A DNA stretch of 64,000 nt from contig NZ_LBHJ01000001.1 of the NCBI RefSeq assembly GCF_001006305.1, forward strand, positions 682,001 through 746,000, in the 5' to 3' direction. This document shows, piece after piece, positions 22,101-39,335 of the stretch (positions within the stretch are counted from its first letter, which is position 1; each line of letters opens with the position of its first letter). Made by a program: the position numbers and the translations under genes. Below the pieces are notes generated by a model that did not search any database, was not told where the DNA came from, and worked only from the letters and a program-made list of their open reading frames with translations. Origin of the DNA: Silvibacterium bohemicum (lineage in GTDB: Bacteria; Acidobacteriota; Terriglobia; Terriglobales; Acidobacteriaceae).

Positions 22101-22539
22101 GCGTCTCCTCGATCGTAGTGTTTTCGATGACCGTGCCGATCGAGGCATCGTCGCGCGACAGCTGAGGTTCCGTCGCGGTGACATTGACCTCGCTCGTGGT
22201 CCCGGCAACCGTGAAGTGGAAATCCTGACGGGCTTTGGCCGAGGGATCGAGGGTGACCGTGGCGTGCTCACCGGCAAATCCGGTCTGGCTGGCAGAAATA
22301 TCGTAGACGCCGACGGGCATGCCTACAAAGGTGTAATAGCCGGAGTGATCCGTGATCGTGGCACGTGATAGATGAGTGGCCTGATTGGTAGCAGTGACCT
22401 GTGCTCCTACAACAATCGCTCCGGAGGGATCGGTGGCGAGTCCCGAAAGCGATGCAACACCAGCCTGACCATGAAGTCTGACGGACAGTGCCACGAGACA
22501 AATAAAGAGCGCGAGCAACCGGAAGCGCGGGAATGCCAT
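19195..22539 (-). CDS. TonB-dependent receptor, Oar-like with carboxypeptidase-regulatory domain
   Basis: A 1114-residue outer-membrane transporter. It has a signal peptide (ALFICLVALSVRLHGQ), a carboxypeptidase-regulatory-like domain (SGLATDPSGAIVVGAQVTAT) and a plug whose N-end contains DGIDNNTFSENLQELSASA. The barrel ends in MQFALRLSF. The ATG has AGGCAGG upstream. Downstream on the same strand lie the phosphodiesterase and acid phosphatase genes, with 108 bp to the first, so the three may form a cell-surface phosphorus-acquisition set. The gene is divergent to the membrane regulator at 22914. Confidence 0.92.
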   Translation of the reverse strand: MAFPRFRLLALFICLVALSVRLHGQAGVASLSGLATDPSGAIVVGAQVTATNQATHLSRATITDHSGYYTFVGMPVGVYDISASQTGFAGEHATVTLDPSAKARQDFHFTVAGTTSEVNVTATEPQLSRDDASIGTVIENTTIEETPLYQRNWDDLIRLIPGVQMQRFTQQSGSSVSGSTGLFTIHGLNDEQNDYILDGIDNNTFSENLQELSASAARPSVDAIGEFKLIANAYTAAYGRSPGAQIDVTTKSGTNQFHGLLFEYLRNRVFDSNDYFTHRAGLPKPAEIQNQFGGNFGGPILHDKLFGFFNYEGTRINQGVTRTATVPLANERAGDFSPAAAAAAGVKYNTIYDYNTPTCRVDPLVCQPFPNNVIPQAAMDPFGFKILNAFPLPNQPGDFNNFVRTGALTDNNDSYDGRVDWNLSDKDLIFGRYTGSNRIRDVPGNFGGIADGSSTSSWGNSVLKSWAFVLGWTRVLNPTMTNDFRFGFVRNFSHDQQQPFGLNSPDEFIPGVPDNPATAGGIGLTEYVSDDSAIIGSPQFLPKQQVPQQYQYTDTFSWTRGSHFLKFGADVRAPMRNIYQDEENMNGALAFAGIFSCLTGSPGNGCSYADGLTGNIYQAGLSNVYFVDERIWMASGFVQDDWKLTPKLTFNLGLRYDFSTSPYSAKNQLANFNPAGAGSLIYATNGSLNDRALVDTKLLAFAPRFGVAYSLGNKTVIRGGYGIYNLLFKRNGSEDQLALNPPSLLSTTSNPVTNPNPLDPLPLPAFQLQNGFSPDLLNPANASSPALQPTLHIHAMDSKSPLPYAQEFSLGFQRELPGQVVLTADYVGTVARHLDVISDLNQYVPSTAGTARPVYPYPAWGYLEFSHSIGTSNYNGLEAQLQRRFHNGLSLITAYTWSKAFATQYDQTFTNSLSGANVPQRVVVSYVYELPFGHNKPFVTSGPGAWLLGGWRTSGIYTFSSGLPFTVSSSGQLSSDIDINGNATALPIMTGRPKKVGDVNCWFYYSANKTCQQLSPGTSDVYAIPNLNAGQSPYGNGGINNLTGPHTNVFDFALMREFSILEKTNLQFRWEVFNLTNSVLFAQPSATLSNSSVGTITSLAGDPRIMQFALRLSF

Positions 22540-22913: not shown

Positions 22914-24231
22914 ATGGCAGGAATTCCAGCTTTAAGGATTGACGCGTCTTCTCTCGATCTGCCTCCGACAGCAAGTGAAGAACGGCAGGCAATTGAGCGC
23001 GTCCTGAGTAGCAAGCATTTCAGCTCGGCGCCACTCCTCTCAGCATTTCTCCTGTATGTGTGCCAGCGCGCAGTGGAGAATCCATCTGCTCGCATCAGCG
23101 AGCATGAGATCGGTGTGAAGGTATTCCATCGTTCGATTGATTTCGATCCGCGCGAAGACAATATCGTGCGCAACTATGCGCGCCAGCTGAGGAAAAGGCT
23201 GCAGGAGTACTACGCGTCCGATGGGGCACAGGATGCCCTGCGGATCGAGATTCCCAAGGGGGGATATCTTCCCGTCTTCGCGTCAAGAGTGTCTTCGCAG
23301 CCTTTGCCGCTCGAGCCTCAAACCTCTGTGTCTCTCGTTCCAAAGGCAGCTGAGCCGCGACATACGAAGCAGGCGAAGCTGCGACTCTGGACGCGTGGGG
23401 GAGCATTTCTGATTTTGTATTCTCTGCTGCTGGGCTGGGCGGTGAAGTGGGCCCTCAGGCCCAGTCCGGCGCCGGAGGCACTCAGCTCGATGCATCCACT
23501 ATGGGCGCAGCTTTTTACCCATGACCGCGATACTTTCATCGTGCCCGGCGACACTGGATTTGTAGTTCTGCAGCAGGTGAATCATCGAACCTTTTCCCTG
23601 CCCGAGTATTTGAATTGGTTTTCGGCAGACGGCCGGCGAAATCCGCTGCCCATGTCCTATCTGGAAGACCAGACGTACACCAGCGTGCTGAATCTCACGA
23701 TCGTCTCGAGCTTGCAGCGGCTGCCGGAAGCGACACCGAATCGCTTCGTTATCCGGGCGGTGCGGAATCTAAGCTTCGATGATCTGAGAGACGGCAATGC
23801 GATCCTGCTGGGATCGAACTACAGCAATCCGTGGGATGAATTGTTCGCCGATCGTCTGACGTTTCATTTCGTGAACCATCCCAGGGACAATCGATATTGG
23901 ATCGTGAATGAGCATCCGCAGCCTGGCGAGTCCGCGATCTATGAATCGGCGACGAAGAATTATCTGCACCAGACCCTATGCTGTGCTGGCATTCCTTCCA
24001 AATCTGAACAAGACAGGCCATGTGCTGCTCATTCAAGGGTTGGATGGGGTGGGCACACAGGCGGCAGCCGACATGCTCTTCAACGGTGACGCATTCCAGC
24101 CTTTGTTGAATCAGGTATTCTCTGCCGGGAAGCGTCTGAGTGGGTTTGAGCTTTTGATCGAAGCGTCCAGCCTGAATGATGATTCAAACGCGACGAGCAG
24201 CCGCATCCTCGCAACGCGGTTGTACCCATGA
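22914..24231 (+). pseudogene. Membrane-anchored regulator with winged-helix-like N-domain, frameshifted
   Basis: The first frame (22914-24089) encodes a cytosolic domain with the motifs ISEHEIGVKVFHRSIDFDPR, NIVRNYARQLRKRLQEYY and IPKGGYLPVF. This is close in layout to the wing of OmpR/CadC-type DNA-binding domains. A transmembrane helix (GAFLILYSLLLGWAVKWAL, about residue 165) and an extracytoplasmic part follow. Near 23975 coding sense jumps to another frame (to 24231), which restores PYAVLAFLPNLNKTGHVLLI and continues to a natural end. One extra base or two missing bases explain it. A second protein of the same architecture is intact at 28491. It is either a real pseudogene or a sequencing error. 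The ATG has no clear ribosome site. Confidence 0.75.
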
Positions 24232-25231: not shown

Positions 25232-26056
25232 TCAGCGGACCTTTGGGGTACATGGGAGATAACTGTTGATTTCATCGATTTGCTCCAGCAGCGGGGTGCA
25301 GGCAGAAAGATCTTCGGCAACATAATTGGTCCCGGCTTGAAGGAGCTGCTGTGCAGCGGAGGCGAGGCGCGATTGCTGGCTGGCGGTATCGAGGTGTGCC
25401 CAGGTTGCGGCGTCGAGGCCGACCAGGTTGCCGGTACGCGTCAGGCCGATGGTCCACATGCCGGCGTTCCGGCCCTCTTCGATGTCGCTCACGGTGTCGC
25501 CGATTTTGACGCATGCCGAGGGTGGATAGATGTCGAGAATGCGCATATTGCGATGGAGCATCCACGGCGCGGGGCGGCCTGCGCCCACTTCATCTGGACA
25601 GACGGAAGCATCGGGCTCATAGCCTCGCGCTGCGGCGAGTTCGGCGATGGGTGTGAGCATCTCGCGGGTATAACCGGTGCTGCTGCCGATACGAAGACCT
25701 TGCGCGCGCCACGCCGCGGTGGTTTCAACAACTCCATAGATGAGCTGCGAGTGGCTGGACAATATACCCGGCTGCAGCAGATTGAAATCCGCGAAGAGTG
25801 AATCGATGTCTTCGGGGACGGGATCGCGTCCCGCAGCCGCGCGCCATTTTTCACAGACGCTGGGAAGAGCGAGGATGGCTCGAATATGGTCCCGCTTGAG
25901 AAGACCCATATCGCGGCGCGCCTCTTCAGAGGAGAGGGTGACGCGGCGGCGAGCGAAGAGCTCCTGAAGGACGATCACGGGAGCGATTGACCCGTGATCG
26001 ACAGTGGTTCCGGCCCAATCGAGCATGACGGCGCGCAGCCGAGTGAAGGGTTTCAT
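25232..26056 (-). CDS. phnX: Phosphonoacetaldehyde hydrolase (phosphonatase)
   Basis: A 274-residue HAD-superfamily enzyme that splits phosphonoacetaldehyde into acetaldehyde and phosphate. The nucleophile loop is LDWAGTTVD with Asp13. The Schiff-base lysine, unique to PhnX, is in MGLLKRDH at Lys54; in the Bacillus enzyme these are residues 12 and 53. Motifs GSSTGYT and KIGDTVSDIEEG complete the HAD site. The ATG at 26056 overlaps the stop of the upstream oxidoreductase gene by four bases (ATGA), and AAAGGA precedes it. The open frame continues 57 codons further but without a start signal. It is last in a four-gene minus-strand operon (regulator, transporter, oxidoreductase, phnX). The partner enzyme making its substrate is probably the class-III PLP enzyme at 31347. 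Confidence 0.95.
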   Translation of the reverse strand: MKPFTRLRAVMLDWAGTTVDHGSIAPVIVLQELFARRRVTLSSEEARRDMGLLKRDHIRAILALPSVCEKWRAAAGRDPVPEDIDSLFADFNLLQPGILSSHSQLIYGVVETTAAWRAQGLRIGSSTGYTREMLTPIAELAAARGYEPDASVCPDEVGAGRPAPWMLHRNMRILDIYPPSACVKIGDTVSDIEEGRNAGMWTIGLTRTGNLVGLDAATWAHLDTASQQSRLASAAQQLLQAGTNYVAEDLSACTPLLEQIDEINSYLPCTPKVR

Positions 26057-27219
26057 CGTTGTTCCTTTGCTACTACGGGTATTTCTGCGGGGTAGAAGGT
26101 TTCGCGAGCGACGCCAAAGCTGAGAGTCATACCTGCACCGCCGAGGCCGGTGATAATCTCGACGCCTTCCGCGGGTTGAAGACGCAGATAAGGTTTCTCG
26201 GGATGCTTCGCATAGACGCCGTGCCATCGTTCGCTGATGGAAATGCCATCAGGCACGCGAACATAGGTGTCGAGATGGCGCAGAATCAGCTCGTCAATTT
26301 CATCGGAGTTGAACGGCGTAACCGGTGGGCCGTACTCGTGCGAATCGCCGAGCGTGAGTTCGCCGGCCGTGGTTTGGGAGACCATGGTGTGAATGCCGAA
26401 GCGGTCGTACTCCGGCGACTCACAGGCAATGCGGCTGCGCAGAGCGTCAAGCGAGGGGCAGAGGGCGAAGGAGGGATAGAAGCGGAAGGTGAGACCTCCG
26501 GCCAGGGCGGGGCCCAGGCTCCAACTTGCGGACTGCGGCCGAGTGCGCAGCATCTGCAGACGACAACAGACGAGGCCGCTGTTTGCGAAGAGCTCAGGGT
26601 AGAGGACGTCGAAGTCTGCGCCATTGCAGATCAGGATGCGGCCAGCGTGCCAATCACCCTTCGTCGTGCGGACACGCGGCGAGTCGATGTGCAGCGCGGT
26701 GCAGTTCCACCCAAAAGAAACTGCATAGCGCTGGGCAAGGTGTTCCGCGAGCCGGTGCAATACCTCGCGCGGATCAACCATGATTTCGGTTTCGCTGTGC
26801 AGCGCGCCGAGAACGGTGTCGCGGCGAAGCGCGGGACTGCAGGCGAGCGCGTCGCCGCGATCGAGCCAGGAGCATTGATAGCCCAGCGCAGGCGCCAGGG
26901 CGGCGAATTCCATCCCTACCTGTTGTTCGTCATCGCGACAGGCGACATGGAGCGAGCCTGTCCGGCGGCTGGGGATTCCAGCTTCCTCAAGCATCTCGAT
27001 CCAGAGCGCGCGGCTCTTCAGGGCCAGCTGCAGCATGGGGCCGGCCGGCTGGCCGATGGGCCAAAGTAAACCGAAGTTGCGGATGGAGGCGCCTAGCGCT
27101 GCGGGCTGCCGCTCAAGGACAGCGACGGAACGGCCGGAGCGGGCGGCGATCCATGCATGCGCGAGGCCGGCAATGCCGGCGCCAATGATCAGAACATCTA
27201 CGTTTCGCGAACTCACCAA
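26053..27219 (-). CDS. FAD-dependent oxidoreductase of the phosphonate-linked TIGR03364 type
   Basis: A 388-residue flavoenzyme of the glycine/D-amino-acid oxidase class. The FAD-binding loop DVLIIGAGIAGLAHAWIAA is at the N-terminus, followed by VLERQPAALGASIRNFG, and a C-terminal TGLGGAGMTLSFGVA closes the FAD site. Members of this subgroup are found beside phosphonate-degradation genes and are thought to oxidise N-substituted aminoethylphosphonates. Placement here between a transporter gene and phnX fits that. Start is uncertain: TTG at 27219 or GTG at 27216; neither has a clear ribosome site, but the gene starts only 6 bp after the transporter stop, so translation coupling is likely. The stop overlaps phnX by four bases. 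Confidence 0.85.
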   Translation of the reverse strand: MVSSRNVDVLIIGAGIAGLAHAWIAARSGRSVAVLERQPAALGASIRNFGLLWPIGQPAGPMLQLALKSRALWIEMLEEAGIPSRRTGSLHVACRDDEQQVGMEFAALAPALGYQCSWLDRGDALACSPALRRDTVLGALHSETEIMVDPREVLHRLAEHLAQRYAVSFGWNCTALHIDSPRVRTTKGDWHAGRILICNGADFDVLYPELFANSGLVCCRLQMLRTRPQSASWSLGPALAGGLTFRFYPSFALCPSLDALRSRIACESPEYDRFGIHTMVSQTTAGELTLGDSHEYGPPVTPFNSDEIDELILRHLDTYVRVPDGISISERWHGVYAKHPEKPYLRLQPAEGVEIITGLGGAGMTLSFGVARETFYPAEIPVVAKEQR

Positions 27220-27225
27220 GCAAGC

Positions 27226-28494
27226 TTATAGCGGAATGTCGGAGAGCTTGAGGGCTGAACGGTTAACTGGCGAGGCATTACCGGTTAAAGAGCGGGCTCC
27301 CAGAGTGCAGATGATGCCGGCGACGATGGCGAAGAAGACGAAAAGATCGAAAAGCCGGCTCCAGCCATAGTGAGCAACGAAGAGCGTAGCCAGCAGCGGA
27401 GAGATAGCCTGCCCGATGGAACCGATGCCGTTGACAAAGCCGATGGAGCGGCCATGGATGTAGGAGGGTACCGTATCGAGGACGGCCATGCCGGACATGA
27501 GCAGGTCCGAACCGTGAATCAGCATGCCCATGAGCGAAATCGAAATTACCATGCCGAGTGTACCAGTGCCGGCCAGGAGCGGATGCAGCAGGCAGACAAA
27601 TGCGAGCGCGTAGAGCATGATTGCGCCGAGCTGCATGTGACGTCCCACGAGCCATCGCTCGATGACGTAGCCTACGGCGATAGGACCGGCGATGCCGAGG
27701 ATTTCGAAGCACGATGCGATGTGGGCCGCCGACCAATTTGTATAGCCGCCGCTCGAAACCAGATAAAGTGGCAGCCAGAAGAGCAGGGTGTACCGCGTCA
27801 TCTTGAGGAAGAAATACATGGCGGAGATGTATCGGATATTGCGATCGCCCAGCACCCTGCGCCAGCTCTGGCCTGAGCTGGCAGAAAATCCTGATTGCGC
27901 GTCTTCAGCAGTTCGCGCCTCGGGCATTCCGCGGGTTTGGAAATAGAAAAGGAGCGCTGCGAGCAACAGAATTCCGGAGATGATGAGATAGGCAGGCTCG
28001 AAGCCGCTGTGCGTAGTAGCTGCGGTGTGAATCGTCAGCCACATGGCGAGGGATGTGGCGAGGAAGCCGCCGAGGATATAGCTGGTGCTCCACCAGCCCA
28101 GCACATGGTCGCGTTCGCCACGGCCAAACCAGCGGCCGAACAGTTGCAGGAGCGCGGGCCAGCCGAATCCCTGACCGAAGCCATTGCCGACCTGCAGCAG
28201 CAAGATCATTTTCGGCGAAGCGATGGCAAGCGCTGCGGTGCAGAGGATGGAGAGAGCGGATCCGGCAAGCGCGACGCGGCGCGCGCTGAAGCGGTCAGCC
28301 AGTTCGCCGCCGACAAATTGCGCGATGGCGTAGGCGACTCCGAAACATGCCAGCTCCGTCGCAAGATGAGTGGCCGCAGAACCGGCCACCGAGCCTAAAT
28401 CCTTGCGGCAGATGTAATAGCCGGCATAGAGCAGCCAAGCGCCGGAGTAGAGCCGGCTGGGCCATGCGGCGTTAGAGAGATTCTGTCGGCTCAT
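27226..28494 (-). CDS. MFS transporter, OPA (GlpT-like) family
   Basis: A 422-residue, 12-helix inner-membrane carrier. It shows the GlpT/UhpT-family features YAGYYICRKDL in helix 1, GGELADRFSARRV between helices 2 and 3, and GWWSTSYILGGFLA. Relatives exchange organophosphates for phosphate. In this context the substrate is probably a phosphonate such as aminoethylphosphonate or its derivative. Its ATG overlaps the stop of the upstream regulator gene by four bases (ATGA). A second, distinct carrier of the same family is encoded divergently at 30010, so the locus holds two. Confidence 0.9.
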   Translation of the reverse strand: MSRQNLSNAAWPSRLYSGAWLLYAGYYICRKDLGSVAGSAATHLATELACFGVAYAIAQFVGGELADRFSARRVALAGSALSILCTAALAIASPKMILLLQVGNGFGQGFGWPALLQLFGRWFGRGERDHVLGWWSTSYILGGFLATSLAMWLTIHTAATTHSGFEPAYLIISGILLLAALLFYFQTRGMPEARTAEDAQSGFSASSGQSWRRVLGDRNIRYISAMYFFLKMTRYTLLFWLPLYLVSSGGYTNWSAAHIASCFEILGIAGPIAVGYVIERWLVGRHMQLGAIMLYALAFVCLLHPLLAGTGTLGMVISISLMGMLIHGSDLLMSGMAVLDTVPSYIHGRSIGFVNGIGSIGQAISPLLATLFVAHYGWSRLFDLFVFFAIVAGIICTLGARSLTGNASPVNRSALKLSDIPL

Positions 28495-29690
28495 TGCGCA
28501 ACCTCAGGCGCGGCGTGCATCCCGCGGAAGGGCAAGCGGACGACCGCCGGTTTGCTGTGCTGCGAGGCAGGAAAGACCGCCTGGGTGATGGTGTAGGGCT
28601 GGAAGCTATCGGCCAGCGCTGTTGGGAAGGTGCTCTGGTCACAGAGCCGGTTCACGAGCATGCGGATGGCATCGTCGTCGACGCCGTCTATCCATATGAG
28701 TAGCCGAGGTCCGTTGACGATCGTTAGCAGTGCTCCGCTGGTTCCGTTCGATTGAGGCAATTGACGGTCGAGAATTCGCCGCCCTGTGGGAGTAGCCCTG
28801 ACAACGAACCGGCTGGCCAGGCTGGCTGCTGTGCTGTCGGCAAGATCGGAAAGCGAATCGGGCTGCCCCGCGGGACTTTCCGCAGCTCCGATATAAACGA
28901 GCCTTCCGTCCGCGGCTTGAGCTGGTGTGCCAACCAGCGTGAGGCGATGGTGAAGCTGCCCGGCGAGGTCGAAGAGTGGAGCGGCAAACTTGAGCGCGCG
29001 AAGATCCATCTCGTCCTGCGGGCCATTGACGGATTCGCTGGCGAGATTCACTGCGGGGGCGCTTGCATGCGGGGGTTGCAGATACAGCTGTGCGTCGCCG
29101 TCAGGAAGAACATGGTTCCAGAAGAGAAGAAACGAGTGGGACTGGGCGAACTCCGAGCGCAAAAAGATGACACAGAGAAAGAGTGCGACAAGGGCGGGAG
29201 TGGCCAACCGGTAGACGGATAAAGCTGGCGACGGTGCGGTTTTTTGCGCGGGCGATTCGGTCTGGGAGTTGGCCGGCGATTCGATGAAGGAACCGTAGAA
29301 GACTGGAACATAGGTCCCTGCCGGCAGGCCAAAACAATACTTGGTCGTGCTATCCAGGCCCTCGTTGTGAGCGTGGAGCCGCTTGCGGACATCATTGGCG
29401 CGGACGCGCACGCCCGCGTCAGTGGCGGTGTCGTAGCTTGCGTCGCGACCGAGTAGCGCCATTCCGATAAGCCGTTCCTTGAGCACATCGGTGTCGCCTT
29501 CGAGAGAGTGGTGGACGATGTGCCGCAGGAACTCGCAGCTCTTGGGGCTGGTGCGGAAGGGAGTGCTCTTGCAAACCGCTTCGAGCGCTTCGCGGAGCGG
29601 CGCACTGTGCTTCGCGAGCTCAGCGCCCCGTATCTTTTGTCTGCCGCTCATTGGCGATGCTGGCAACCAGGCCTCATCTGGCAGGGTCAT
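28491..29690 (-). CDS. Membrane-anchored regulator with winged-helix-like N-domain (CadC-like layout)
   Basis: A 399-residue protein. Residues 20-150 hold a conserved cytosolic domain with LKERLIGMALLGRDASYDTA, RANDVRKRLHAHNE and LPAGTYVPVF, similar to a DNA-binding wing. One transmembrane helix follows (LATPALVALFLCVIFLRSEF, about residue 182). The rest is an extracytoplasmic domain of about 200 residues with no recognised fold. This is a one-protein sensor-regulator layout. It is the first gene of the phosphonate operon and overlaps the transporter by four bases, so it is a good candidate for local control. The start ATG has AAGGAAGGAA upstream. A frameshifted protein of the same type is at 22914. 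Confidence 0.8.
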   Translation of the reverse strand: MTLPDEAWLPASPMSGRQKIRGAELAKHSAPLREALEAVCKSTPFRTSPKSCEFLRHIVHHSLEGDTDVLKERLIGMALLGRDASYDTATDAGVRVRANDVRKRLHAHNEGLDSTTKYCFGLPAGTYVPVFYGSFIESPANSQTESPAQKTAPSPALSVYRLATPALVALFLCVIFLRSEFAQSHSFLLFWNHVLPDGDAQLYLQPPHASAPAVNLASESVNGPQDEMDLRALKFAAPLFDLAGQLHHRLTLVGTPAQAADGRLVYIGAAESPAGQPDSLSDLADSTAASLASRFVVRATPTGRRILDRQLPQSNGTSGALLTIVNGPRLLIWIDGVDDDAIRMLVNRLCDQSTFPTALADSFQPYTITQAVFPASQHSKPAVVRLPFRGMHAAPEVAQ

Positions 29691-29901
29691 GTCGGGGGTT
29701 CCTTCCTTTTGCGTACTTCGTGAGCTGGGGAATCGGGAACCGATCAGCCGCGGGAGTCCGATCTACTTTGACCGTTATGATATTGCGCGATGTGTTACAG
29801 GCGGATAATGGCGGCGAACTTCGCGGCGCAGTCATGTTGTTTTCATATTCGATTCGCTTATTGTGCGCGTTGCGAGGCCGGTAACGTGGCTACACTCACG
29901 G

Positions 29902-29918
29902 CTTAACCTGCCGAACGT
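29902..29918 (+). promoter_or_regulatory. 17-bp motif upstream of the phosphonate transporter
   Basis: CTTAACCTGCCGAACGT, 92 bp before the GTG start of the 30010 transporter. The same motif with one change (T for C) stands 67 bp before the TonB receptor at 33003. The 319-bp divergent gap 29691-30009 that contains it has no gene. Confidence 0.5.
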
Positions 29919-30009
29919 TTCCATGGACGGCACTTCCACGTGAGTCTGGGAGGAATCGCACTCGGTCCACATTCATTCAGGACCTACGCGGCAGGAGCGA
30001 GACAACCAC

Positions 30010-31350
30010 GTGGGTAAATCGATTCGGCCGGAAGCGGCGATCTCAGGACGCCGCGGCCAGCGGAGGATCTTCGCAGTCACCTGGCTCACGTACGCCGGGT
30101 TCTATCTTTGCCGAAAGAATCTGAGCATTGCTTTGCCGGCTTTGCATAGTGCTTCAGGGCTGGGAAGTCTGACGCTGGCCAATATCGTTTTTGGCTACAG
30201 TCTGCTGTACGCTCTGGGCCAATTCGGATGCGGCTTTCTGTCGGACAGATTTGGCCCCCGCCGCGTAGTAGGCACAGGTTTGGTGTTGATCGTCGCCAGC
30301 AATCTGCTGATGGGGTTGCATGGCGCGCCGCTTTGGCTGCTGGTCTTCGCCTGTGCCAACGGCATTGGGCAGTCGACGGGGTGGTCGGGCCTGGTGAAAA
30401 TCATGGCCAGCTGGTTCAGCAGCCGGCAGCGGGGCGTGGTGATGGCATGGTGGGGGACGAATTACGTCCTGGGCGGATTCTTAGCCACGGCTTTCGCCAC
30501 ATGGGCTGTTTCCCAGCAATGGCTGCTTCCAGCGCTTGGATGGCGCCGCGGTTTCATTCTGCCGGCTGCGGTGCTGGCTGTAGTCGCAGCCCCGTTCTTT
30601 CTGGTGATACGAGATGAACCGGAAACATCCCAGCCTCAGAATTCGGTGGAGGCTGGTGCCACACGCGATGGGCGCTCCAGCCATTCGGCGTGGCGCGAAG
30701 TGCGCGCATTGCTCGGTAACCGTGCGATCTGGCTGATTGGCGCCTCCTACTTTTTTCTCGAGATGTGCCGGTATGCCCTGATGTTCTGGCTACCTTATTA
30801 CATGGTCAACCAGCTGCATTACAGTCTGACGGCCTCAGGATATCTCTCTTCGCTGTACGAACTGGTCGGTGTTGTCGGCGCGGTGGCAGCCGGCTACATC
30901 TCTGATCACTGGATGCAATCGCGCCGTGCGCCGGTTTCAGCCTTGATGCTGTGCGGGTTCAGCGTAGTTGTATTAGCGCAGATGGGGACGGCGAGCTTAG
31001 GCCCGGTGGCTACCGGTATCGCTGTTTCTCTGGCGGGCCTGCTCTCGTATGGTCCGGATACGCTGCTTTCGGGAGCGGCCGCCCAGGACATCGGACAGGC
31101 AAAGGCCGCGGCGACGGCTTCCGGGCTGATCGATGGTATCGGGCACCTGGGGGCATTGATTTCGCCTTACCTGGTGATTTATGTCAGTGAACATTATGGT
31201 TGGGACCGCCTGTTCCTGGTGTTTGCCGCAGCTGGATTTGCAGCGGCTGGGATGTTGATTCCACTCTGGAACCTGAAGCCCTCGGATCACTCGGAGACGA
31301 TTGGGCCGCCGTTGCCACCACTGGATCGGGAGTTGATGATCAATCTATGA
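30010..31350 (+). CDS. MFS transporter, OPA (GlpT-like) family
   Basis: A 446-residue 12-helix inner-membrane carrier that starts with GTG. GlpT/UhpT-family signatures are present: YAGFYLCRKNLSIALPAL in helix 1, CGFLSDRFGPRRVVG, and WWGTNYVLGGFLA. It shares layout with the carrier at 27226 but is not a recent duplicate. It lies divergently to the phosphonate operon and overlaps the class-III PLP enzyme gene by four bases (ATGA). It may import the substrate of that enzyme. Ribosome site AGGAG lies about 10 bases before the GTG. Confidence 0.9.
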   Translation: MGKSIRPEAAISGRRGQRRIFAVTWLTYAGFYLCRKNLSIALPALHSASGLGSLTLANIVFGYSLLYALGQFGCGFLSDRFGPRRVVGTGLVLIVASNLLMGLHGAPLWLLVFACANGIGQSTGWSGLVKIMASWFSSRQRGVVMAWWGTNYVLGGFLATAFATWAVSQQWLLPALGWRRGFILPAAVLAVVAAPFFLVIRDEPETSQPQNSVEAGATRDGRSSHSAWREVRALLGNRAIWLIGASYFFLEMCRYALMFWLPYYMVNQLHYSLTASGYLSSLYELVGVVGAVAAGYISDHWMQSRRAPVSALMLCGFSVVVLAQMGTASLGPVATGIAVSLAGLLSYGPDTLLSGAAAQDIGQAKAAATASGLIDGIGHLGALISPYLVIYVSEHYGWDRLFLVFAAAGFAAAGMLIPLWNLKPSDHSETIGPPLPPLDRELMINL

Positions 31351-32711
31351 ACGACAGCAAAGCGATACCGCAATCCGAAGGCGACGTAAACTTATCCGCG
31401 GCGCGCACGGCGTGGCAAAACGAGCATCTGGATGCAGAGACGCGCGCATTGCTCGAAGAAGACGCGCGTTTTTTTCTGCACCAGTCGCTGTCGTCACCCT
31501 GCCTTAACGTTCTGCATGCGTGTGATGGAAGTTTCCTGATCGATGCGCAGGGACGGCGTTATCTGGATTTTCACGGAAACAACGTGCACCAGATCGGCTT
31601 TGGAAACCCGAAGGTGAAAGCAGCCGTAGTGGAGGCGATGGACGAGCTGCCTTTTTGTACGCGCCGCTATACGAATCGTCACGCAATCGCACTGGCTCGT
31701 AAGCTGGCTGCGATTTCTCCGGGGAACCTGAACAAATGCCTCTTTGCGCCGGGTGGCGCCGAGGCCATCTCGATGGCGGTCAAGCTTGCGCGTCTGGCCA
31801 CCGGGCGCTTCAAAACCATTTCGCTTTGGGATTCGTTTCACGGCGCAACGCTGGACACAATCTCGTTGGGCGGCGAAGCTCTCTTCCGTCGCGGCATGGG
31901 ACCGCTGATGCCGGGCGCCGAGCACGTTCCTCCGCCGGAGCCGCAGCGGTGCCCCTTCCGCTGCGGAAAGAGCTGCACGCTCGCCTGCGTGGACTACATC
32001 GAGTATGTGCTGGAGCGAGAGGGCGATGTCGCTGCGATCATCGGAGAAACGGTGCGCAGCACGGGCACCATTCCGCCCAAGGATTATTGGCAGCGCGTTC
32101 GTTCGTTATGCGATCGCTATGGAGCTCTGTTGATTCTCGATGAGATTCCCCACGGACTGGGGCGAACGGGATCGATGTTTACCTGCGAGCAATACGGCAT
32201 CGTCCCGGACATGCTGGTGATCGGCAAGGGCCTGGGCGGAGGAATGTTGCCAATGGCGGCGCTGCTTGCGCGGGAGGATCTCGATGTCGGTGGCGGGGTG
32301 GCGCTGGGTCACTTCACACACGAGAAGAATCCCGTGCTGTGCGCCGCGGCTCTCGCCACTATCGAGGTAATCGAAGCGGAGAATCTGGCTCAGCGGGCGG
32401 CGAAGTTGGGTGCGCGTTTTCTTGCACAACTCAAGGATCTTGAAGCGCGTCATCCCATCATCTGCGATGTACGCGGTCTCGGCCTTCTCTGTGCGCTGAC
32501 GCTTCGGCATGCGGATGGATCGCCGGCCGAGGCGGAGGCTGAAGAGATCCTGTATGCAGCATTGAGCCTGGGGCTCAGCTTCAAAACATCGATGGGCAAC
32601 ACGATCGTACTCACTCCTCCTTTGACCATTGAGGAGCAACATCTGAACACCGCGATCGAAATTCTGGATACTGCATTCTCCGCGCTGCAACAAAGAGCAA
32701 GCCAGCCCTGA
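31347..32711 (+). CDS. Class-III PLP enzyme of the phosphonate pathway, possibly (R)-1-hydroxy-2-aminoethylphosphonate ammonia-lyase
   Basis: A 454-residue fold-type I PLP enzyme. The PLP-Lys is Lys294 (VIGKGLGGG) and the ring-Asp is Asp265 (ILDEIPHG). A stretch CPFRCGKSCTLAC (residues 202-214) carries four regularly spaced cysteines. It is not the class-V type PhnW. Class-III enzymes linked to phnX are known as PbfA, which converts hydroxylated aminoethylphosphonate to phosphonoacetaldehyde and ammonia; here the divergent phnX supplies the next step. An ordinary aminoethylphosphonate transaminase cannot be excluded. The ATG at 31347 overlaps the transporter stop by four bases, which fixes the start; the frame is open further upstream. 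Confidence 0.85.
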   Translation: MNDSKAIPQSEGDVNLSAARTAWQNEHLDAETRALLEEDARFFLHQSLSSPCLNVLHACDGSFLIDAQGRRYLDFHGNNVHQIGFGNPKVKAAVVEAMDELPFCTRRYTNRHAIALARKLAAISPGNLNKCLFAPGGAEAISMAVKLARLATGRFKTISLWDSFHGATLDTISLGGEALFRRGMGPLMPGAEHVPPPEPQRCPFRCGKSCTLACVDYIEYVLEREGDVAAIIGETVRSTGTIPPKDYWQRVRSLCDRYGALLILDEIPHGLGRTGSMFTCEQYGIVPDMLVIGKGLGGGMLPMAALLAREDLDVGGGVALGHFTHEKNPVLCAAALATIEVIEAENLAQRAAKLGARFLAQLKDLEARHPIICDVRGLGLLCALTLRHADGSPAEAEAEEILYAALSLGLSFKTSMGNTIVLTPPLTIEEQHLNTAIEILDTAFSALQQRASQP

Positions 32712-32919
32712 ACAAGCCTTTGATCCATTCATGACGATTCTGTAAATGATGTTTCGACCGCCTGATCTTGAAGATGTCTCGAAAGAGGACCTTCTGTTTC
32801 TGCGGTGTGAACAGGCGACGCCATACTTTGCGCAAGAGATTCATGGTTTGTTCACTCCGGGATTTCACCGCCCCACATAAAGAGCTTCCGTCGGCGCCCG
32901 AACGCACACCACATCGCCA

Positions 32920-32936
32920 CTTAACCTGCTGAACGT
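32920..32936 (+). promoter_or_regulatory. 17-bp motif upstream of the 33003 receptor
   Basis: CTTAACCTGCTGAACGT, 67 bp before the receptor ATG. It matches 16 of 17 bases of the motif at 29902-29918, on the same strand. Probably a shared operator or activator site. The gap 32712-33002 contains no gene I can support. Confidence 0.5.
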
Positions 32937-33002
32937 ATCGGTACGACGCAGAACCGCCTGACACTCAGCACAGAAGCGCGACATTTTGGAGGGGGCGACA
33001 AA

Positions 33003-36000
33003 ATGAATATCAAGAAGTGTTTCATACGGTGCAAACATCTCTTTCCACTCGGCGGCCTTTTGCTGGTTCTGCTGTCGATGGTGCAACCGGCGTCGGCACA
33101 AGCCGTGCATGGAGCGATCGTCGGCACCGTGGTGGATTCCACCGGCGCCATGGTGCCAGGCGCTACCGTAATTCTGACCGACACAGATAAGGGAGTCGTG
33201 CGCACCACGACGAGCAGCGCCATGGGCGAGTATCACTTTCTTGACGCTGATGCGGATCGCTACAACATGGAGGTCGAGGCACACGGTTTCGAGAAGTGGT
33301 CCTCCATAGGATTGCAGTTAGATACTCTGCAAACCCTGCGTGTCGATGCAAAGCTCATCGTCGGCAGCGCCGCCCAAACCGTACAGGTCTCGGGCGAAAA
33401 CACTGGCGTGATTCAGACGGAAACTCCCACCATCACGACCACGTTCAACTCCGATGACGTGCTGAACTTGCCGACAAACTTCCGCGCCAGTTCGGCCGGT
33501 ACGTCGATATTGGGCGCGATGTCCGCCATGCCCGGTGTGCAGGCCGATCAGGGGAAATTTTCGGTTGAGGGGAATCTCCCTTTCCAATCGGACATGACCG
33601 TGGATGGAGTCACGAATATCCAGGTTGGAAGCAGCGGCAATCCGGTTCTCTTCCCCAGTGCTGACGCTGTGGCTTCGATTCAACTGACCGGCGTGCTGGC
33701 TCCTGCCGAATTCGGAGATCCGGCCCAGGTGTCGGTCACGACCAAGGGCGGCGCGAATACATTTCATGGCGCTGGATGGGAATACCACCAGAACTCCGGC
33801 ATCAACGCAAATACTTTTGGGTCTCCCATCAGGCCGCATGTTGTTGCAAACACCTTTGGCGGAAAGCTGGGCGGCCCGGTTATCCTTCCTAAGCTATACG
33901 ACGGCCGGAATAAAAGCTTCTTCTTCGTCGATTATGAGGGCTTCCGTCTTCCGCAGAGCGTGACTATGCAGGCCACAGTGCCAACGGCGGCCATGAAGAT
34001 GGGCGACTTTTCAAACTACTCAAACCCGTCGGCAGCTTACTCAGGCTTAACCGATCCCTATACGGGCGCCAGTTGGGGCAATGTAATTCCGTCGGCTAAT
34101 TTAAGCTCGATCGCGCAAAAGTTCTTGCAGTTTTATCCCGACCCGAATACGCCAGCAACATTGTCAGGTGGCGGCACCGTTCCCACGACCTCCTATGTGA
34201 ACGGAGAGTCGCCAAATTATTACGCCAATGTGTCCGAGCCTACGCACTCCAACCAGGTAGACGTTCGCGGCGACCAGTACTTCGGTGCGAATCAGAAGGT
34301 TCTGCTCTGGGGCCGCTATAGCTACTACAATTTTCCGAGCACATCGGGTTACAACCTAAACTTCGATCCTAGTGTTAATATCTACGACTCATCGAACTTG
34401 AGTACGAGCCTCAGCTGGACGATAAAGCCGAACCTGATTAACGTGTTTCTCTTTGGTTTCACACGCTGGAACAATGGAGATTCTAATTCCTACAACGGCA
34501 CCGGCTTCACGCAGGGCCTGGGTTTCACAGCCCTGAACGACCTGTGGTACAACGGCTTTCCATTTATTTCATTCACGAATATCTCGTCTCCGCCGGCGGG
34601 ACGGCTCAACAGCAACGACATCGATAATACGTACTCCTATAGCGACAGCGTGTCATGGACGAAGGGAGTGCATAACTTCAAGTTCGGCGGGGACATCCGA
34701 GCCTACACTTATATCGGAGGAACCGGGATAAGTACGGGCGATAACTATGGAAACTTTTATTTCAGCAACGTAGGCAACGCTGTGGGTACATTCACGGGCG
34801 TAGATTTTGCGGACTTCCTGCTGGGGATTCCAAACAACTCGAGTTATGACGATATAACGAGAGACATCGACGGCTCCGCTGCAGAGTACCACCTATACGC
34901 CGAAGACCATTGGAGCGCTACACCACGGCTGTCAGTCGATTATGGCCTGCGATATGAATACCGCCCGGGCTTCTATGACAAGAACGGCTTCTATGCCAAT
35001 ATGGATTACAGCGTACCGCGCACGGCCGAGGTTGTTTATCCCACCTTTCCCCAGCCGAATATCCAGTCGCCAAGCACTCTTGCCTCCTCCAATGCCTGCG
35101 ACACGGATGGTATTAACAACTCGAACAACGCGATCGTAAACGGCGCACCATGCATGCCGGTCGTCTCCAACACTGCTGCGGGTCTGCCACGAAGCCTGCG
35201 CTTCGTGGATAAGAATCGCATCCTGCCTCGCCTGGGATTTGCATACCGCTTGACGAATGACGGCAAGTGGGTGGTGCGCTCAGGCTTTGGCTTGTACAAC
35301 GTTACTATCATGGGCCAGACCTTTCATTCTTTGACCGGAACGATTCAAGGCAGTTCGTCGGCGTATTCAAACGCACTAAATACAACCACGAATCAACCGC
35401 TCTACGCATGGCCGGCGATAGGCTACGGCTCTGGAACCAGCGGCTGTACAACCTGCTACGGCACGAACGAATTCAACGCAAGCATTGACATTCACTATCA
35501 CGATGCGGAGACGGCGCAGTGGGCTTTGACCCTGGAGCATGATCTGGGCCGGGGCTACGGTGTGCGCGCATCGTATACGGGTTCCGAAACGTCTCATCTG
35601 AATTTGAAGCAAGATGAGAACACCTTGCCTCTGTCCACCACCGCTTCTGCCTACAATCAGCCGTTCAGCGCGCGCAGGTTCCCTAACTGGGGCATCCTGA
35701 TGAACTATGGTTCCCAGGCAAATGCGAATTACAACTCGATGGAATTTGAAGCCAAGCATCACATGGAGAACGGTCTTCAGTTCGACTCAACATTTACCTG
35801 GGCCAGGGCTCTGTCGAATAACACTGGCGCGACCGACACGGAGTTTACTGGCGAACGCGGCGGAGGTGATTTTGCCTCCTGGGTATTTGATAAGAGGCTG
35901 GACTATGGAAATACGCCAGGTCCTCGCCGCCTGCATTGGTTGACTACCTCGATCTACGAGCTACCCGTCGGTCGTGGCAGGCACTTCGGCTCAAGCATGC

Positions 36001-36611
36001 CGCGGCTTATGGATGCGGTTGTCGGTGGCTGGCAACTGAGCAACATCTTTATCTGGCAGAGCGGCGCGTACATTACGCCAACGTTTGCTGGCGGGGAAAC
36101 TGATCCCTCCGGCACGGGTTCGGGACTTGCCACATCTCTGGCGGGATGGATCCCCACCGATGCCTCACAACATCCGGACCGCGTGGCGGGCGTTAACTGG
36201 AAGCCGCGTGGCCAGGGCCGTAACGGCTGGATTAACCCATCGGCTTTCGCCTGTCCCGGCTGGAGTGCCTGGACACCCGGCGAGGCCTGCGACACCGGCG
36301 CCGGTTACAACGCTGACGGGACACCGGTTTCCGCATACGGTCCCCCGCTTCCAATCGGTCGCTTTGGCAATAGCGGAATTGGCACAGTGCAGGGCCCTGG
36401 TCTTATCCAGCTGAATAGTGGTCTCGCCAAGATTTTCGCGATCAATGAGCGTTTCAAACTTCGGGCCGAGGCGAGTTTCACCAACGTAACGAATCACACA
36501 AACTTAAACGAGAACAACCTCAACCTGAATCTATCGAGCGCCAGCTTCGGAGTTATCACGGCGGGACTCGGAGGCCGCAGCGGCCAGATCGGAGCGCGGT
36601 TGGACTTCTAG
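33003..36611 (+). CDS. TonB-dependent receptor, Oar-like with carboxypeptidase-regulatory domain
   Basis: A 1202-residue outer-membrane transporter, the longest intact one here. It has a signal peptide (LFPLGGLLLVLLSMVQPASAQ), a carboxypeptidase-regulatory-like domain (GTVVDSTGAMVPGATVILTD) and a plug with FSVEGNLPFQSDMTVDGVTN and TTKGGANTFHGAGWEYH. The barrel ends in SGQIGARLDF. A ribosome site GGAGGG lies ahead of the ATG. The upstream motif links it to the phosphonate locus, and a Tat-exported phospholipase C gene follows after a terminator. Ligand unknown; phosphonate- or lipid-derived molecules are a context guess. Confidence 0.93.
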   Translation: MNIKKCFIRCKHLFPLGGLLLVLLSMVQPASAQAVHGAIVGTVVDSTGAMVPGATVILTDTDKGVVRTTTSSAMGEYHFLDADADRYNMEVEAHGFEKWSSIGLQLDTLQTLRVDAKLIVGSAAQTVQVSGENTGVIQTETPTITTTFNSDDVLNLPTNFRASSAGTSILGAMSAMPGVQADQGKFSVEGNLPFQSDMTVDGVTNIQVGSSGNPVLFPSADAVASIQLTGVLAPAEFGDPAQVSVTTKGGANTFHGAGWEYHQNSGINANTFGSPIRPHVVANTFGGKLGGPVILPKLYDGRNKSFFFVDYEGFRLPQSVTMQATVPTAAMKMGDFSNYSNPSAAYSGLTDPYTGASWGNVIPSANLSSIAQKFLQFYPDPNTPATLSGGGTVPTTSYVNGESPNYYANVSEPTHSNQVDVRGDQYFGANQKVLLWGRYSYYNFPSTSGYNLNFDPSVNIYDSSNLSTSLSWTIKPNLINVFLFGFTRWNNGDSNSYNGTGFTQGLGFTALNDLWYNGFPFISFTNISSPPAGRLNSNDIDNTYSYSDSVSWTKGVHNFKFGGDIRAYTYIGGTGISTGDNYGNFYFSNVGNAVGTFTGVDFADFLLGIPNNSSYDDITRDIDGSAAEYHLYAEDHWSATPRLSVDYGLRYEYRPGFYDKNGFYANMDYSVPRTAEVVYPTFPQPNIQSPSTLASSNACDTDGINNSNNAIVNGAPCMPVVSNTAAGLPRSLRFVDKNRILPRLGFAYRLTNDGKWVVRSGFGLYNVTIMGQTFHSLTGTIQGSSSAYSNALNTTTNQPLYAWPAIGYGSGTSGCTTCYGTNEFNASIDIHYHDAETAQWALTLEHDLGRGYGVRASYTGSETSHLNLKQDENTLPLSTTASAYNQPFSARRFPNWGILMNYGSQANANYNSMEFEAKHHMENGLQFDSTFTWARALSNNTGATDTEFTGERGGGDFASWVFDKRLDYGNTPGPRRLHWLTTSIYELPVGRGRHFGSSMPRLMDAVVGGWQLSNIFIWQSGAYITPTFAGGETDPSGTGSGLATSLAGWIPTDASQHPDRVAGVNWKPRGQGRNGWINPSAFACPGWSAWTPGEACDTGAGYNADGTPVSAYGPPLPIGRFGNSGIGTVQGPGLIQLNSGLAKIFAINERFKLRAEASFTNVTNHTNLNENNLNLNLSSASFGVITAGLGGRSGQIGARLDF

Positions 36612-36631
36612 TTCTATAACGAACAGGAAAC

Positions 36632-36659
36632 GACCCACCGGCAGCAAGGTTGGTGGGTC
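36632..36659 (+). terminator. Terminator hairpin after the 33003 receptor
   Basis: GACCCACC (36632) pairs with GGTGGGTC (36652), an 8-bp stem, followed by ATTCCTT. It lies 20 bp after the receptor stop. Confidence 0.7.
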
Positions 36660-36773
36660 ATTCCTTAACTAACGAAATCGCCAGCAATGGCTGGTACGAT
36701 TGTAAGTGGGTAGTGTACATCATGCGGTCATTTATAAGTGCGTCTTCGGCGAAGCCTTAAGTCAATATTCAAG

Positions 36774-39335
36774 ATGAAGCATAGGACAAAACAAAAGATG
36801 GAATCGAGACGTGATTTCTTGAAGCTGGCATCGCTACTCGCCGCCGGCGGCTTCGGACAGCAGATGCTGCCGGCCATAACGCGAGCTGCGGCGATTGATC
36901 CAGAGCAGGGATCGACCTACCTGGACGCGGAGCACGTCGTGATTCTCATGCAGGAAAACCGTTCCTTCGATCACCTCTACGGCACCCTGCGCGGTGTCCG
37001 CGGCTACAACGATCCGCGTGCGATTACGCAGCCCGGCGGCAATCCGGTATGGCTGCAGGCAAGCGCTTTAGGAGCGATCCACACGCCTTTTCATTTCGAT
37101 ATCCGCAATAGCAACGCGACATGGCTAGGCTCGCTGCCGCACGGCTGGGAAGATTCGAACGCAGCGCGCAATGGCGGCCGGTACGACGGCTGGATTCCCG
37201 CCAAGGCGGCCACCGATCCCATTCGCGCCCATCTGCCGTTGACGATGGGTTATTACACTCGCGAAGACCTGCCCTTCTACTATGCTCTAGCTGATGCCTT
37301 TACGGTATGCGACCAGAACTTTTCGTCGTCGCTCACTGCGACCGAGCCTAACCGGCTGCACATGTGGACGGGAACGGTACGCGCCGAGCCGTCGATCCGG
37401 TCATTCGCTTATGTACGCAATGACGATATGGGATACGACAAGCAACTGGATTGGACTACCTTTCCCGATCGGCTGGAACAGCAGGGAATTTCCTGGCGCA
37501 TCTATCAGAACGAACTGAGCCTGCCCTCCGGCCTGACTGACGAGGAAGACAAGTGGTTGTCGAACTTCGATGACAATACGCTCGAGTACTTCAGCCGTTA
37601 TCACGTACGCTTCACGCCTTCGTACCGGCGCTGGCTCGCGGAGAAGGAAAGCACGCTTGTATCTGCGCTCGAGCAACTCAATGGCGCGCCTCAAAATGCA
37701 GAAACAGCGAAGCGCGTTGCCGAGTCGCAGCGGCAATTGGACGATGTGCGGCGCGAACTTTCTGCATGGACCGACGCTGCCTTTGCCGCGCTGCCGGAAC
37801 ATGAGCGAAACCTGCACCGCAAGGGGTTTATCACCAATGAAGGCGATCTTGACTTTCGTGCACTGACTCCGCTGCGTTTTCAGCAAGACGGTGTGGAGCG
37901 CTCCATGAACGTCCCCAAAGGCGACGTGCTTCACCAGTTTCGACAGGATGTTCAGAGCGGCAAACTGCCCGCTGTTTCATGGATCGTTGCGCCTGAGGCT
38001 TTTTCCGATCATCCGTCCTCTGCATGGTTCGGCGCGTGGTACGTCTCGGAGGCGCTTAATATCCTGACGAGCGATCCCGAGGTCTGGAAGAAAACGATCT
38101 TCATTCTCTGCTACGACGAGAACGATGGCTACTTCGATCACGTTCCGCCGTTTGTGCCGCCGCAGCCAAGGCGCACAGACACCGGGAAGGTTTCCGCTGG
38201 AATCGATCCCTCCGTCGAATATGTTTCCTCGGAGCAGATCGATGCGATGCGCCAGAAGGAACCAGACTGGCCGGGGAAGCCCGGGCCTATCGGGTTGGGA
38301 TTCCGTGTACCGCTCGTGATCGCATCGCCCTGGAGTCGAGGCGGATACGCCTGTTCGCAGGTTTTCGATCACACCTCGATACTGCAATTTCTCGAAGTTT
38401 TTCTAAACCACAAGCAAGGCCAGCTCATTCGAGAAACCAACATCAGCGCCTGGCGCCGGACTGTTTGTGGCGATCTGACCTCCGCTTTTCGTCCTTGGAG
38501 CGCGCAGAGATCGCAATTACCCGAGCCGGTGAGGCGCGATCCATTCCTGATCTCGATCCAGGAGGCGAAGGTGAAGCCGATGCCAGGCGGGATGGAGCCG
38601 CTAACCCAGAAAGAGATCGAGCAAGTGCGCCGCTCGCCGCGCAACTCCCCGCGATTGCCAGAGCAGGAGAACGGCATACGACCGGCGTGCGCGCTGCCCT
38701 ACGAACTAACTACGGATGGAGCGCTCGCCGTGGATAAAAGCGCATTCACGATCAAATTTGCTGCCGGACGCCGGCTCTTTGGTGAGCGCGCATCTGGCGC
38801 ACCCTTCCGCGTTTACACGCCAGAGCGAGTGCGAGGGGCCGGCCCAGACACACTTGCAGATACAGGCGCAGGCGGATTCGAGACAGGACGCTCATGGGAC
38901 TACGCGGTCGCCGCCGGAGACAAGATTGCGGATCATTTTCCGCTTCGACTCTTCGATTCGGAAACGTACCATCTGTGCGTCTATGGTCCGAACGGTTTTT
39001 TTCGCGAATTCCGCGGGGATGCCCAGGATCCACGACTGATTGTCAGCCTTCTAAGTACATCCCAAGGCGCATCCCTCAAGCTTGTGAATCGTGATTCCTC
39101 GCAATCATTAACGGTGACGATCGACGACCTTGCCTATGGCGACGTCGCGCGTACAATCGCCATCGCGGCGGGAAGTTCATCGGAGTTAGCCCTGAATCTC
39201 GTACCGAGTTTTGGCTGGTATGATCTGCGGATTCGCGTTGCTGGCGCCGCGCACTATGAACAGCGCTATGCCGGGAAAGTAGAAATGGGGCGGGAGAGTT
39301 TCACCGATCCTTCGATGGGAACCCGACTGCTTTGA
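36774..39335 (+). CDS. Tat-exported phospholipase C (phosphocholine-type)
   Basis: About 853 residues. It begins with a twin-arginine signal (SRRDFLKLASLLAAGG) and is therefore exported folded. The phosphoesterase domain shows VVILMQENRSFDHLYGTLRG and FSSSLTATEPNRL, with a later CYDENDGYFDHVPPF; these match bacterial PlcH/PlcN enzymes that release phosphocholine from phosphatidylcholine. Two C-terminal beta-domains of the DUF756 type follow (from about residue 640). Start is chosen at ATG 36774; ATG 36798, just before the twin-arginine, has a better-spaced AGGA and could be used instead. It follows the TonB receptor in the same direction and may feed choline and phosphate from lipids. Confidence 0.9.
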   Translation: MKHRTKQKMESRRDFLKLASLLAAGGFGQQMLPAITRAAAIDPEQGSTYLDAEHVVILMQENRSFDHLYGTLRGVRGYNDPRAITQPGGNPVWLQASALGAIHTPFHFDIRNSNATWLGSLPHGWEDSNAARNGGRYDGWIPAKAATDPIRAHLPLTMGYYTREDLPFYYALADAFTVCDQNFSSSLTATEPNRLHMWTGTVRAEPSIRSFAYVRNDDMGYDKQLDWTTFPDRLEQQGISWRIYQNELSLPSGLTDEEDKWLSNFDDNTLEYFSRYHVRFTPSYRRWLAEKESTLVSALEQLNGAPQNAETAKRVAESQRQLDDVRRELSAWTDAAFAALPEHERNLHRKGFITNEGDLDFRALTPLRFQQDGVERSMNVPKGDVLHQFRQDVQSGKLPAVSWIVAPEAFSDHPSSAWFGAWYVSEALNILTSDPEVWKKTIFILCYDENDGYFDHVPPFVPPQPRRTDTGKVSAGIDPSVEYVSSEQIDAMRQKEPDWPGKPGPIGLGFRVPLVIASPWSRGGYACSQVFDHTSILQFLEVFLNHKQGQLIRETNISAWRRTVCGDLTSAFRPWSAQRSQLPEPVRRDPFLISIQEAKVKPMPGGMEPLTQKEIEQVRRSPRNSPRLPEQENGIRPACALPYELTTDGALAVDKSAFTIKFAAGRRLFGERASGAPFRVYTPERVRGAGPDTLADTGAGGFETGRSWDYAVAAGDKIADHFPLRLFDSETYHLCVYGPNGFFREFRGDAQDPRLIVSLLSTSQGASLKLVNRDSSQSLTVTIDDLAYGDVARTIAIAAGSSSELALNLVPSFGWYDLRIRVAGAAHYEQRYAGKVEMGRESFTDPSMGTRLL

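Follow-up and report, generated by a model that had tools for sequence, protein, structure and literature searches.

The described systems closest to the locus reported here, an eight-gene block of the acidobacterium Silvibacterium bohemicum, come from four lines of work. Clusters in which PbfA accompanies phnWX are known from Vibrio splendidus, where PbfA funnels (R)-1-hydroxy-2-aminoethylphosphonate (R-HAEP) to phosphonoacetaldehyde (Zangelmi et al. 2021, PMC8154272). Among the flavoenzymes that act on 2-aminoethylphosphonate (AEP) derivatives, N-methyl-AEP is oxidised by PbfC and PbfD, and strong evidence points to the same activity in PbfB; PbfC discriminates approximately 400-fold against AEP, oxidation of AEP by PbfD2 of Mariniblastus, which has no PhnW, falls only 4-fold short of that of N-methyl-AEP, PbfD1 of Acinetobacter is annotated as TIGR03364, and pbfD genes outside PbfD1 stand mostly with phnX alone (Zangelmi et al. 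2023, PMC10590968). PbfA and PbfD have already appeared together in print, there with PhnW, in the phnWYA clusters of two Hyphomicrobiales (PMC12366243). In Flavobacterium, PusCD systems for phosphate utilisation (PUS) bring together complexes of the outer membrane, carriers, phosphodiesterases and phosphonate enzymes (PMC8115612). AepP is a 2AEP permease of Pseudomonas putida BIRD-1; carriers of its type have been reported next to phosphonate genes in Granulicella (Acidobacteria) and in Kriegella aquimaris (PMC8316502), and the regulation of AepP is treated in PMC9311074. Our window is the stretch of 64,000 nucleotides at positions 682,001 to 746,000 of contig NZ_LBHJ01000001.1 (assembly GCF_001006305.1).

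The genes in question lie in the order phnX, pbfD, carrier 1, regulator, carrier 2, pbfA, Oar-like outer-membrane protein and phospholipase C (PLC) (Table 1), and they probably form a locus for scavenging aminophosphonates in which the phosphonatase pathway is entered by two routes that bypass PhnW. The chemistry is known; the assembly of known enzyme types is new. PbfA, PhnX and the route from R-HAEP to phosphonoacetaldehyde are shared with the V. splendidus clusters (PMC8154272), but PhnW is found neither in the cluster nor above the model cut-off in the genome, and two carriers of the organophosphate:phosphate antiporter (OPA) family, an outer-membrane protein and a PLC are added. As in the PbfD2-PhnX pair of Mariniblastus fucicola (PMC10590968), a flavin adenine dinucleotide (FAD) oxidoreductase is joined to PhnX in the absence of PhnW; in contrast to that pair there is PbfA as a second entry, and surface genes are present. 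The PusCD systems likewise set an outer-membrane protein alongside a phosphoesterase, phosphonate enzymes and carriers (PMC8115612), whereas the locus described here is acidobacterial and has an Oar-like barrel instead of SusCD, a dedicated PLC clade and its own 19-base motif. One Oar-like barrel (PF25183) and no SusD-like neighbour were found among the eight genes, and the locus would work like a PusCD system at most. AepP is likewise described as a GlpT-related OPA carrier beside phosphonate genes (PMC8316502); here two divergent carriers are present. Judged by titles and abstract openings, no published work was found that connects PbfA or the phosphonatase pathway of Acidobacteria with a PLC or with an outer-membrane protein.

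The class-III pyridoxal 5'-phosphate (PLP) enzyme is PbfA, by family a predicted R-HAEP ammonia-lyase. It exceeds the cut-off of the PbfA equivalog NF049939, and it was placed in a tree of 126 rows which comprised 85 PbfA proteins (the window, 80 fetched loci and four further loci), five second copies from near a PbfA gene in other loci, and 36 further class-III proteins, of which eight are paralogues from the window's own genome and 28 are the best matches outside PbfA in relatives. All 36 fell outside the PbfA branch with a support of 100 in this quick tree, which included no biochemically tested PbfA and in which several of the 36 stood on long branches; the window protein sat in a seven-row terriglobial clade, again with a support of 100. 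It also matched 37 of 37 signature residues, taken as the alignment columns that at least 95% of the other 84 PbfA rows share and that recur in at most 10% of the 36 others. Lys294 is presumably the PLP-bearing lysine. Membership of PF00202, matches to many transaminase models below their cut-offs and a score over the cut-off of NF004755, "aspartate aminotransferase family protein" (639 against 467 bits), would suit an ordinary omega-transaminase recruited to AEP, but given the equivalog score, the exclusion of all 36 other rows, own-genome paralogues included, from the PbfA branch and the complete set of signature residues we regard this as very improbable, and an ordinary class-III transaminase is ruled out on the same three grounds. 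The profile search and tree of 31347-32711 proposed in the preliminary description thus gave no placement among ordinary transaminases, and its assignment to PbfA stands. Second class-III proteins near PbfA in five other loci (L051, L079, L091, L103 and L113) formed a clade of their own on the PbfA side (support 100); the L051 copy, cut by a contig end, scored 512.7 bits, short of the 525 required for PbfA. In L096, L105 and L114, PbfA and PhnX were seen on contigs titled archaeal (Candidatus Methanomethylicota/Methanomethylicales).

PhnX was assigned from a TIGR01422 score above cut-off together with an alignment to the solved PhnX 2iof in which the DWAGTT and MGLLK motifs are retained, which we take to be the sites of the catalytic Asp and the Schiff-base Lys. 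PhnW, the partner that defines the classic PhnWX pathway, was missing: across the whole 6.46-Mb genome (99.98% complete) the best match to TIGR02326 was 80.9 bits against a cut-off of 400.8. This search ruled out a PhnW gene at another place in the genome; the class-V gene of the window, at 51964-53220, is IscS. The flavoenzyme exceeds the cut-off of TIGR03364, its gene overlaps phnX by 4 bases, and it falls among rows of Verrucomicrobia and Bacteroidota whose loci lack PhnW in a tree without the characterised PbfD1 or PbfD2. Because tested members of this group oxidise N-methyl-AEP, and PbfD2 also AEP, to the same intermediate, the FAD enzyme is the likelier stand-in for PhnW, with PbfA as a second, separate entry for R-HAEP. 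The preliminary description had proposed that the locus is entered through the class-III enzyme instead of PhnW and saw no class-V enzyme there; PbfA and the absence of PhnW were borne out, while PbfA is not the sole entrance.

The pattern around PbfA in other genomes points the same way. In 80 PbfA loci, taken as fetched stretches of up to 10 kb on each side (several much shorter) and scored by BLAST with a single PhnW and the PbfD of the window as references at 90 bits, PbfD alone was present in 29, PhnW alone in 23 (weak Chloroflexi included), neither in 28 and both in none (Fisher p 2.9e-6, an indication only). Whole-genome searches covered 39 genomes, namely that of the window and 38 of the 80 behind the fetched loci. 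TIGR03364 was present in 17, and PhnW, at E 1e-40 or better, in 21: 13 over cut-off, one in Kriegella (352 bits) and seven weak ones in Chloroflexi (208-242 bits). Fourteen genomes had TIGR03364 only, 18 PhnW only, three both and four neither (p 8.3e-5, likewise an indication); the last four were Terracidiphilus gabretensis, the Terriglobia metagenome-assembled genome (MAG) JOPF024, a Chloroflexi MAG and Lutibacter sp. B1. The mutual exclusion in the loci around PbfA is the pattern that a substitution would give. As a separate observation, seven Chloroflexi loci (L052, L057, L058, L059, L060, L069 and L070) carry a PhnW-like protein before phnX and pbfA, encoded in a frame of approximately 490-580 codons, with 30-35% identity to a PhnW and scores below the PhnW cut-off.

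The model put forward at the outset, with PbfA as the sole or main entry, the flavoenzyme serving N-methyl-AEP only and AEP left unused, draws on the confirmed PbfA (family score, tree and signature residues), on the precedent of PbfC with its approximately 400-fold selectivity against AEP (PMC10590968), and on T. gabretensis. This is the sole genome behind the seven terriglobial loci (the window and L045-L050) in which neither PhnW nor TIGR03364 was detected (PbfB and PbfC types were not searched), and it has a phnX, carrier, regulator, carrier, pbfA and Oar-like cluster (L048, strain S55, 4918-14662). PbfA may be the only entry in that organism. For the S. bohemicum locus we consider the sole-entry model unlikely: PbfD2, from a PhnW-free organism, takes AEP at a level just 4-fold below N-methyl-AEP (PMC10590968), and PbfD and PhnW shut each other out around PbfA, as a substitution would have it.

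The six genes of the preliminary description were confirmed by the open reading frame (ORF) calls in strand, start and overlap, but its limits were too narrow, as the conserved unit runs on to 39335 and takes in the outer-membrane and PLC genes. In the congeneric strain ZG23-2 (genome G002, locus L045) the same eight genes are kept in order and orientation at 72-88% identity, and the block 25275-39319 aligns at 75-80% DNA identity; no counterpart of the adjoining 15.2 kb (left) and 14.7 kb (right) was detected by blastn within the fetched 35 kb of that genome. The outer-membrane protein is 81% identical to the ZG23-2 copy, the only other match above 52% among 61 genomes (own included, with at most 11 candidates scored in each). 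PbfA over cut-off was found in two of 61 close relatives and in five of 396 genomes of the phylum, the window's genome counted in both, so the locus is rare and patchy. Synteny, the shared motif and the PLC clade disfavour the view that the outer-membrane protein and PLC are chance neighbours.

Across the seven terriglobial loci an Oar-like gene was present in all (PF25183 was checked in the window and L046-L049), at least 72% identical to that of the window in four only (window, L045, L049 and L050). PLC was present in five of the seven, the L046 copy as a broken remnant, and PbfD in five, with PhnW in L049 and neither in L048. In L049 (bog_399) the first gene after the motif and ahead of carrier 2, at 7510-8418, encodes a type I phosphodiesterase (107.9 bits to PF01663, cut-off 23) with only weak NCBIfam matches (best PhnA, 34.4 bits); counting it, six of the seven loci have some phosphoesterase. 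A further locus at greater distance, L054, combines PbfA and a carrier with a PLC, an Oar-like gene, PhnA (446 bits, cut-off 407.55) and a PhnY-like protein (608 bits, cut-off 635.65).

The 19-base motif TTAACCTGCYGAACGTNTC occurs exactly twice in the genome, once before the carrier-pbfA genes and once before the outer-membrane gene. When the S. bohemicum genome (G000) and G002 were scanned with up to 3 mismatches, 12 and 9 sites were found against 1 and 2 for the reversed motif used as control; each genome had two exact sites, both at the PbfA locus, and the next best site had 2 mismatches. Seven further genomes (G448-G452, G456 and G457) were scanned with up to 2 mismatches and a looser 3' end. 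G449, G451 and G452 had two exact sites apiece, in every case at the PbfA locus, and G448, G450, G456 and G457 had none; inexact sites numbered 8, no more than the 12 of the control. Four other loci have the motif ahead of their outer-membrane gene, in one case with TTGC at its 3' end. In L047 the gene so led encodes a different Oar-like protein; in L049 the outer-membrane gene lies across phnX from its usual side and is still preceded by the motif, and the second copy precedes the phosphodiesterase, 1.2 kb ahead of carrier 2.

The divergent membrane protein is probably the regulator and the motif its putative operator. The earlier label of a membrane regulator fits a hydrophobic segment recognised by eye, while searches of Pfam, NCBIfam and, by profile, the PDB gave no match, so the label as a whole is inferred. 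Related proteins, 42-80% identical, occur in five other PbfA loci. In G448 (L046) no homologue was found at E 1e-20 and the motif copy is decayed, again by eye; in L048 the regulator is present with a diverged motif only. This pattern is compatible with the regulator as the motif-binding protein. A paralogue of the regulator (29% identity over 99 residues) was seen at 22914-24089 of the window, divergent beside another Oar-like gene (19195-22539), in a layout resembling that of the locus.

The PLC carries SRRDFLK in its N-terminal region, which we take to be a twin-arginine translocation (Tat)-like signal motif, and it exceeds the cut-off of the phosphocholine-specific model TIGR03396. In a tree of 35 rows, the six PLCs of acidobacterial PbfA loci formed one clade with a support of 99/97 (the L046 remnant filling 20% of the columns), outside which fell the PLC from L108, a flavobacterial locus, and 28 PLCs from elsewhere, three of them from the S. 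bohemicum genome. Within the clade the gene lies after the outer-membrane gene (window, L045 and L050), beside phnX (L047), directly after pbfA (L046), or past the Oar-like gene on the opposite side of pbfA (L054). The window PLC shares 57-86% identity with intact PLCs from the other PbfA loci of Acidobacteria, compared with 46-48% for four unlinked PLCs of similar length and 37-41% for two that are shorter, so its specificity for phosphocholine head groups may have shifted. This PbfA-linked clade is the one new lead in an otherwise known enzyme set. The L108 gene (Snuella sedimenti, 513-3056; 47% identity) lies approximately 7 kb before pbfA.

R-HAEP was first isolated from a polysaccharide of Acanthamoeba castellanii, HAEP has been reported in a Bdellovibrio lipid (PMC8154272), and the lipophosphonoglycan of Acanthamoeba is also treated in PMC3964302. 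Because of these occurrences, a PLC in the unit suggests the release of phosphonolipid head groups, and the locus is best read as one of the PUS/PUL type that scavenges phosphonates, perhaps those of phosphonolipids. The fullest version, a locus dedicated to phosphonolipids or lipophosphonoglycan in which a PLC subfamily would free HAEP and AEP head groups from the membranes of soil amoebae or predatory bacteria, and a dedicated regulon would couple outer-membrane uptake to a PhnW-free, two-branch phosphonatase pathway, is tentative and rather doubtful. The main alternative substrate of the PLC is ordinary phosphatidylcholine, and evidence for action of phosphocholine-specific PLC on phosphonolipids was not found in the literature, as judged by titles and abstract openings.

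A simpler account, to which we give somewhat less than even weight, is a standard PbfA/PbfD/PhnX cluster beside a general phosphorus-scavenging pair, the outer-membrane protein and a PLC for ordinary phospholipids, with only a low-phosphate setting in common. Bacteroidetes PUS clusters do mix phosphodiesterases with phosphonate genes (PMC8115612). The PLC itself fits the phosphocholine-specific model, leaving ordinary phosphocholine lipids as a possible substrate; its gene is not preceded by the 19-base motif; and in two of the seven terriglobial loci, L048 and L049, no PLC was found in the fetched stretches, L049 lying near contig ends. On the other side, the outer-membrane gene and carrier-pbfA share the motif, the PLC stands near PbfA in several arrangements and as its own clade, and in L049 the displaced outer-membrane gene keeps its motif and a phosphodiesterase lies inside the motif-led pbfA operon.

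The points just given on the PLC model, the motif and the two loci also weigh against the integrated eight-gene reading, as do several others. PLC is not restricted in this genome to the PbfA locus, there being three further homologues, two of them shown to exceed the TIGR03396 cut-off, and it is over cut-off in 18 of 396 genomes of the phylum with two candidates scored per genome. Oar-like proteins are abundant, with 124 first-look candidates in the S. bohemicum genome. The substrates of the proteins are predictions from family membership, the flavoenzyme may belong to an AEP-oxidising or to another PbfD subgroup, and the Fisher p-values overstate the significance because loci and rows are related.

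Taken as an integrated locus, the system would work as follows. The exported PLC would free phosphonate head groups from lipids, and the Oar-like protein would aid uptake of the released product. One or both OPA carriers may then move aminophosphonates over the inner membrane, as their kinship with GlpT and the precedent of AepP suggest; the two may serve two forms of substrate, as the preliminary description supposed. Both are members of the major facilitator superfamily (MFS), 34% identical to each other, with best matches to TIGR00881 (PgtP/GlpT type) below its cut-off; carrier 2 aligns to GlpT 1pw4 (E 3.3e-38) and keeps both arginines which we take to be phosphate-binding. Inside the cell, on family-level evidence, PbfA would eliminate ammonia from R-HAEP and the PbfD-type flavoenzyme would oxidise N-methyl-AEP, and probably AEP, both giving phosphonoacetaldehyde, which PhnX would split into acetaldehyde and phosphate. 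The regulator may act at the observed motif and so tie the outer-membrane gene to the carrier-pbfA operon.

Table 1. Features of the aminophosphonate locus in the window.
Feature	Position	Strand and start	Evidence
Eight-gene unit	25232-39335
phnX, phosphonoacetaldehyde hydrolase	25232..26056	-	TIGR01422 327.8 bits, cut-off 220
pbfD-type FAD oxidoreductase (TIGR03364)	26053..27219	-, TTG start	412.5 bits, cut-off 285.1
OPA-family MFS carrier 1	27226..28494	-	TIGR00881 136.9 bits, below cut-off; MFS_1
Putative membrane-anchored one-component regulator	28491..29690	-	no family match
Motif copy 1, TTAACCTGCYGAACGTNTC	29903..29921	+	exact; ends 89 bases upstream of carrier-2 start
OPA-family MFS carrier 2, GlpT-like	30010..31350	+, GTG start	TIGR00881 212.9 bits, below cut-off
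Class-III PLP enzyme, PbfA	31347..32711	+	NF049939 673.3 bits, cut-off 525
Motif copy 2	32921..32939	+	exact; ends 64 bases upstream of outer-membrane protein start
Oar-like outer-membrane protein (CarboxypepD_reg + OMP_b-brl_4 barrel)	33003..36611	+	PF25183 593.7 bits, PF13620 60.6 bits
Phospholipase C, phosphocholine-specific type	36798..39335	+; ORF open from GTG 36738	TIGR03396 770.2 bits, cut-off 580.25

By the ORF calls, four-base overlaps join the regulator to carrier 1, the FAD enzyme to PhnX and carrier 2 to the class-III enzyme, and carrier 1 is separated from the FAD enzyme by 6 bases. Between 24000 and 40000 no known RNA element reached its gathering score, and scans for sigma-70 promoters (2 against a shuffle mean of 5.0) and terminators (15 against 13.0 in shuffles) gave no excess. 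The best consensus match to a Pho box in the window was 11 of 14 (shuffle p 0.01); three of ten tested stretches had p < 0.05, uncorrected, with best matches at differing places, and a Pho box at the locus is a lead. One such sequence lies at 29794-29811 on the minus strand, facing the regulator operon, and similar same-strand sequences, each weak alone, were seen in G002, L050 and L046. A GntR/UTRA regulator (43818-44618, minus strand) lies 4.5 kb outside the block; its best NCBIfam match is PhnF at 88.5 bits (cut-off 156.8).

How soil bacteria reach R-HAEP is the question to which a unit of PLC, outer-membrane protein and PbfA offers a concrete, testable answer. The locus also represents a phosphonatase pathway in Acidobacteria without the textbook transaminase, and surveys which use phnW as a marker would therefore miss such organisms. 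T. gabretensis, within the searches made of its genome, provides a natural test of a pathway entered through PbfA only.

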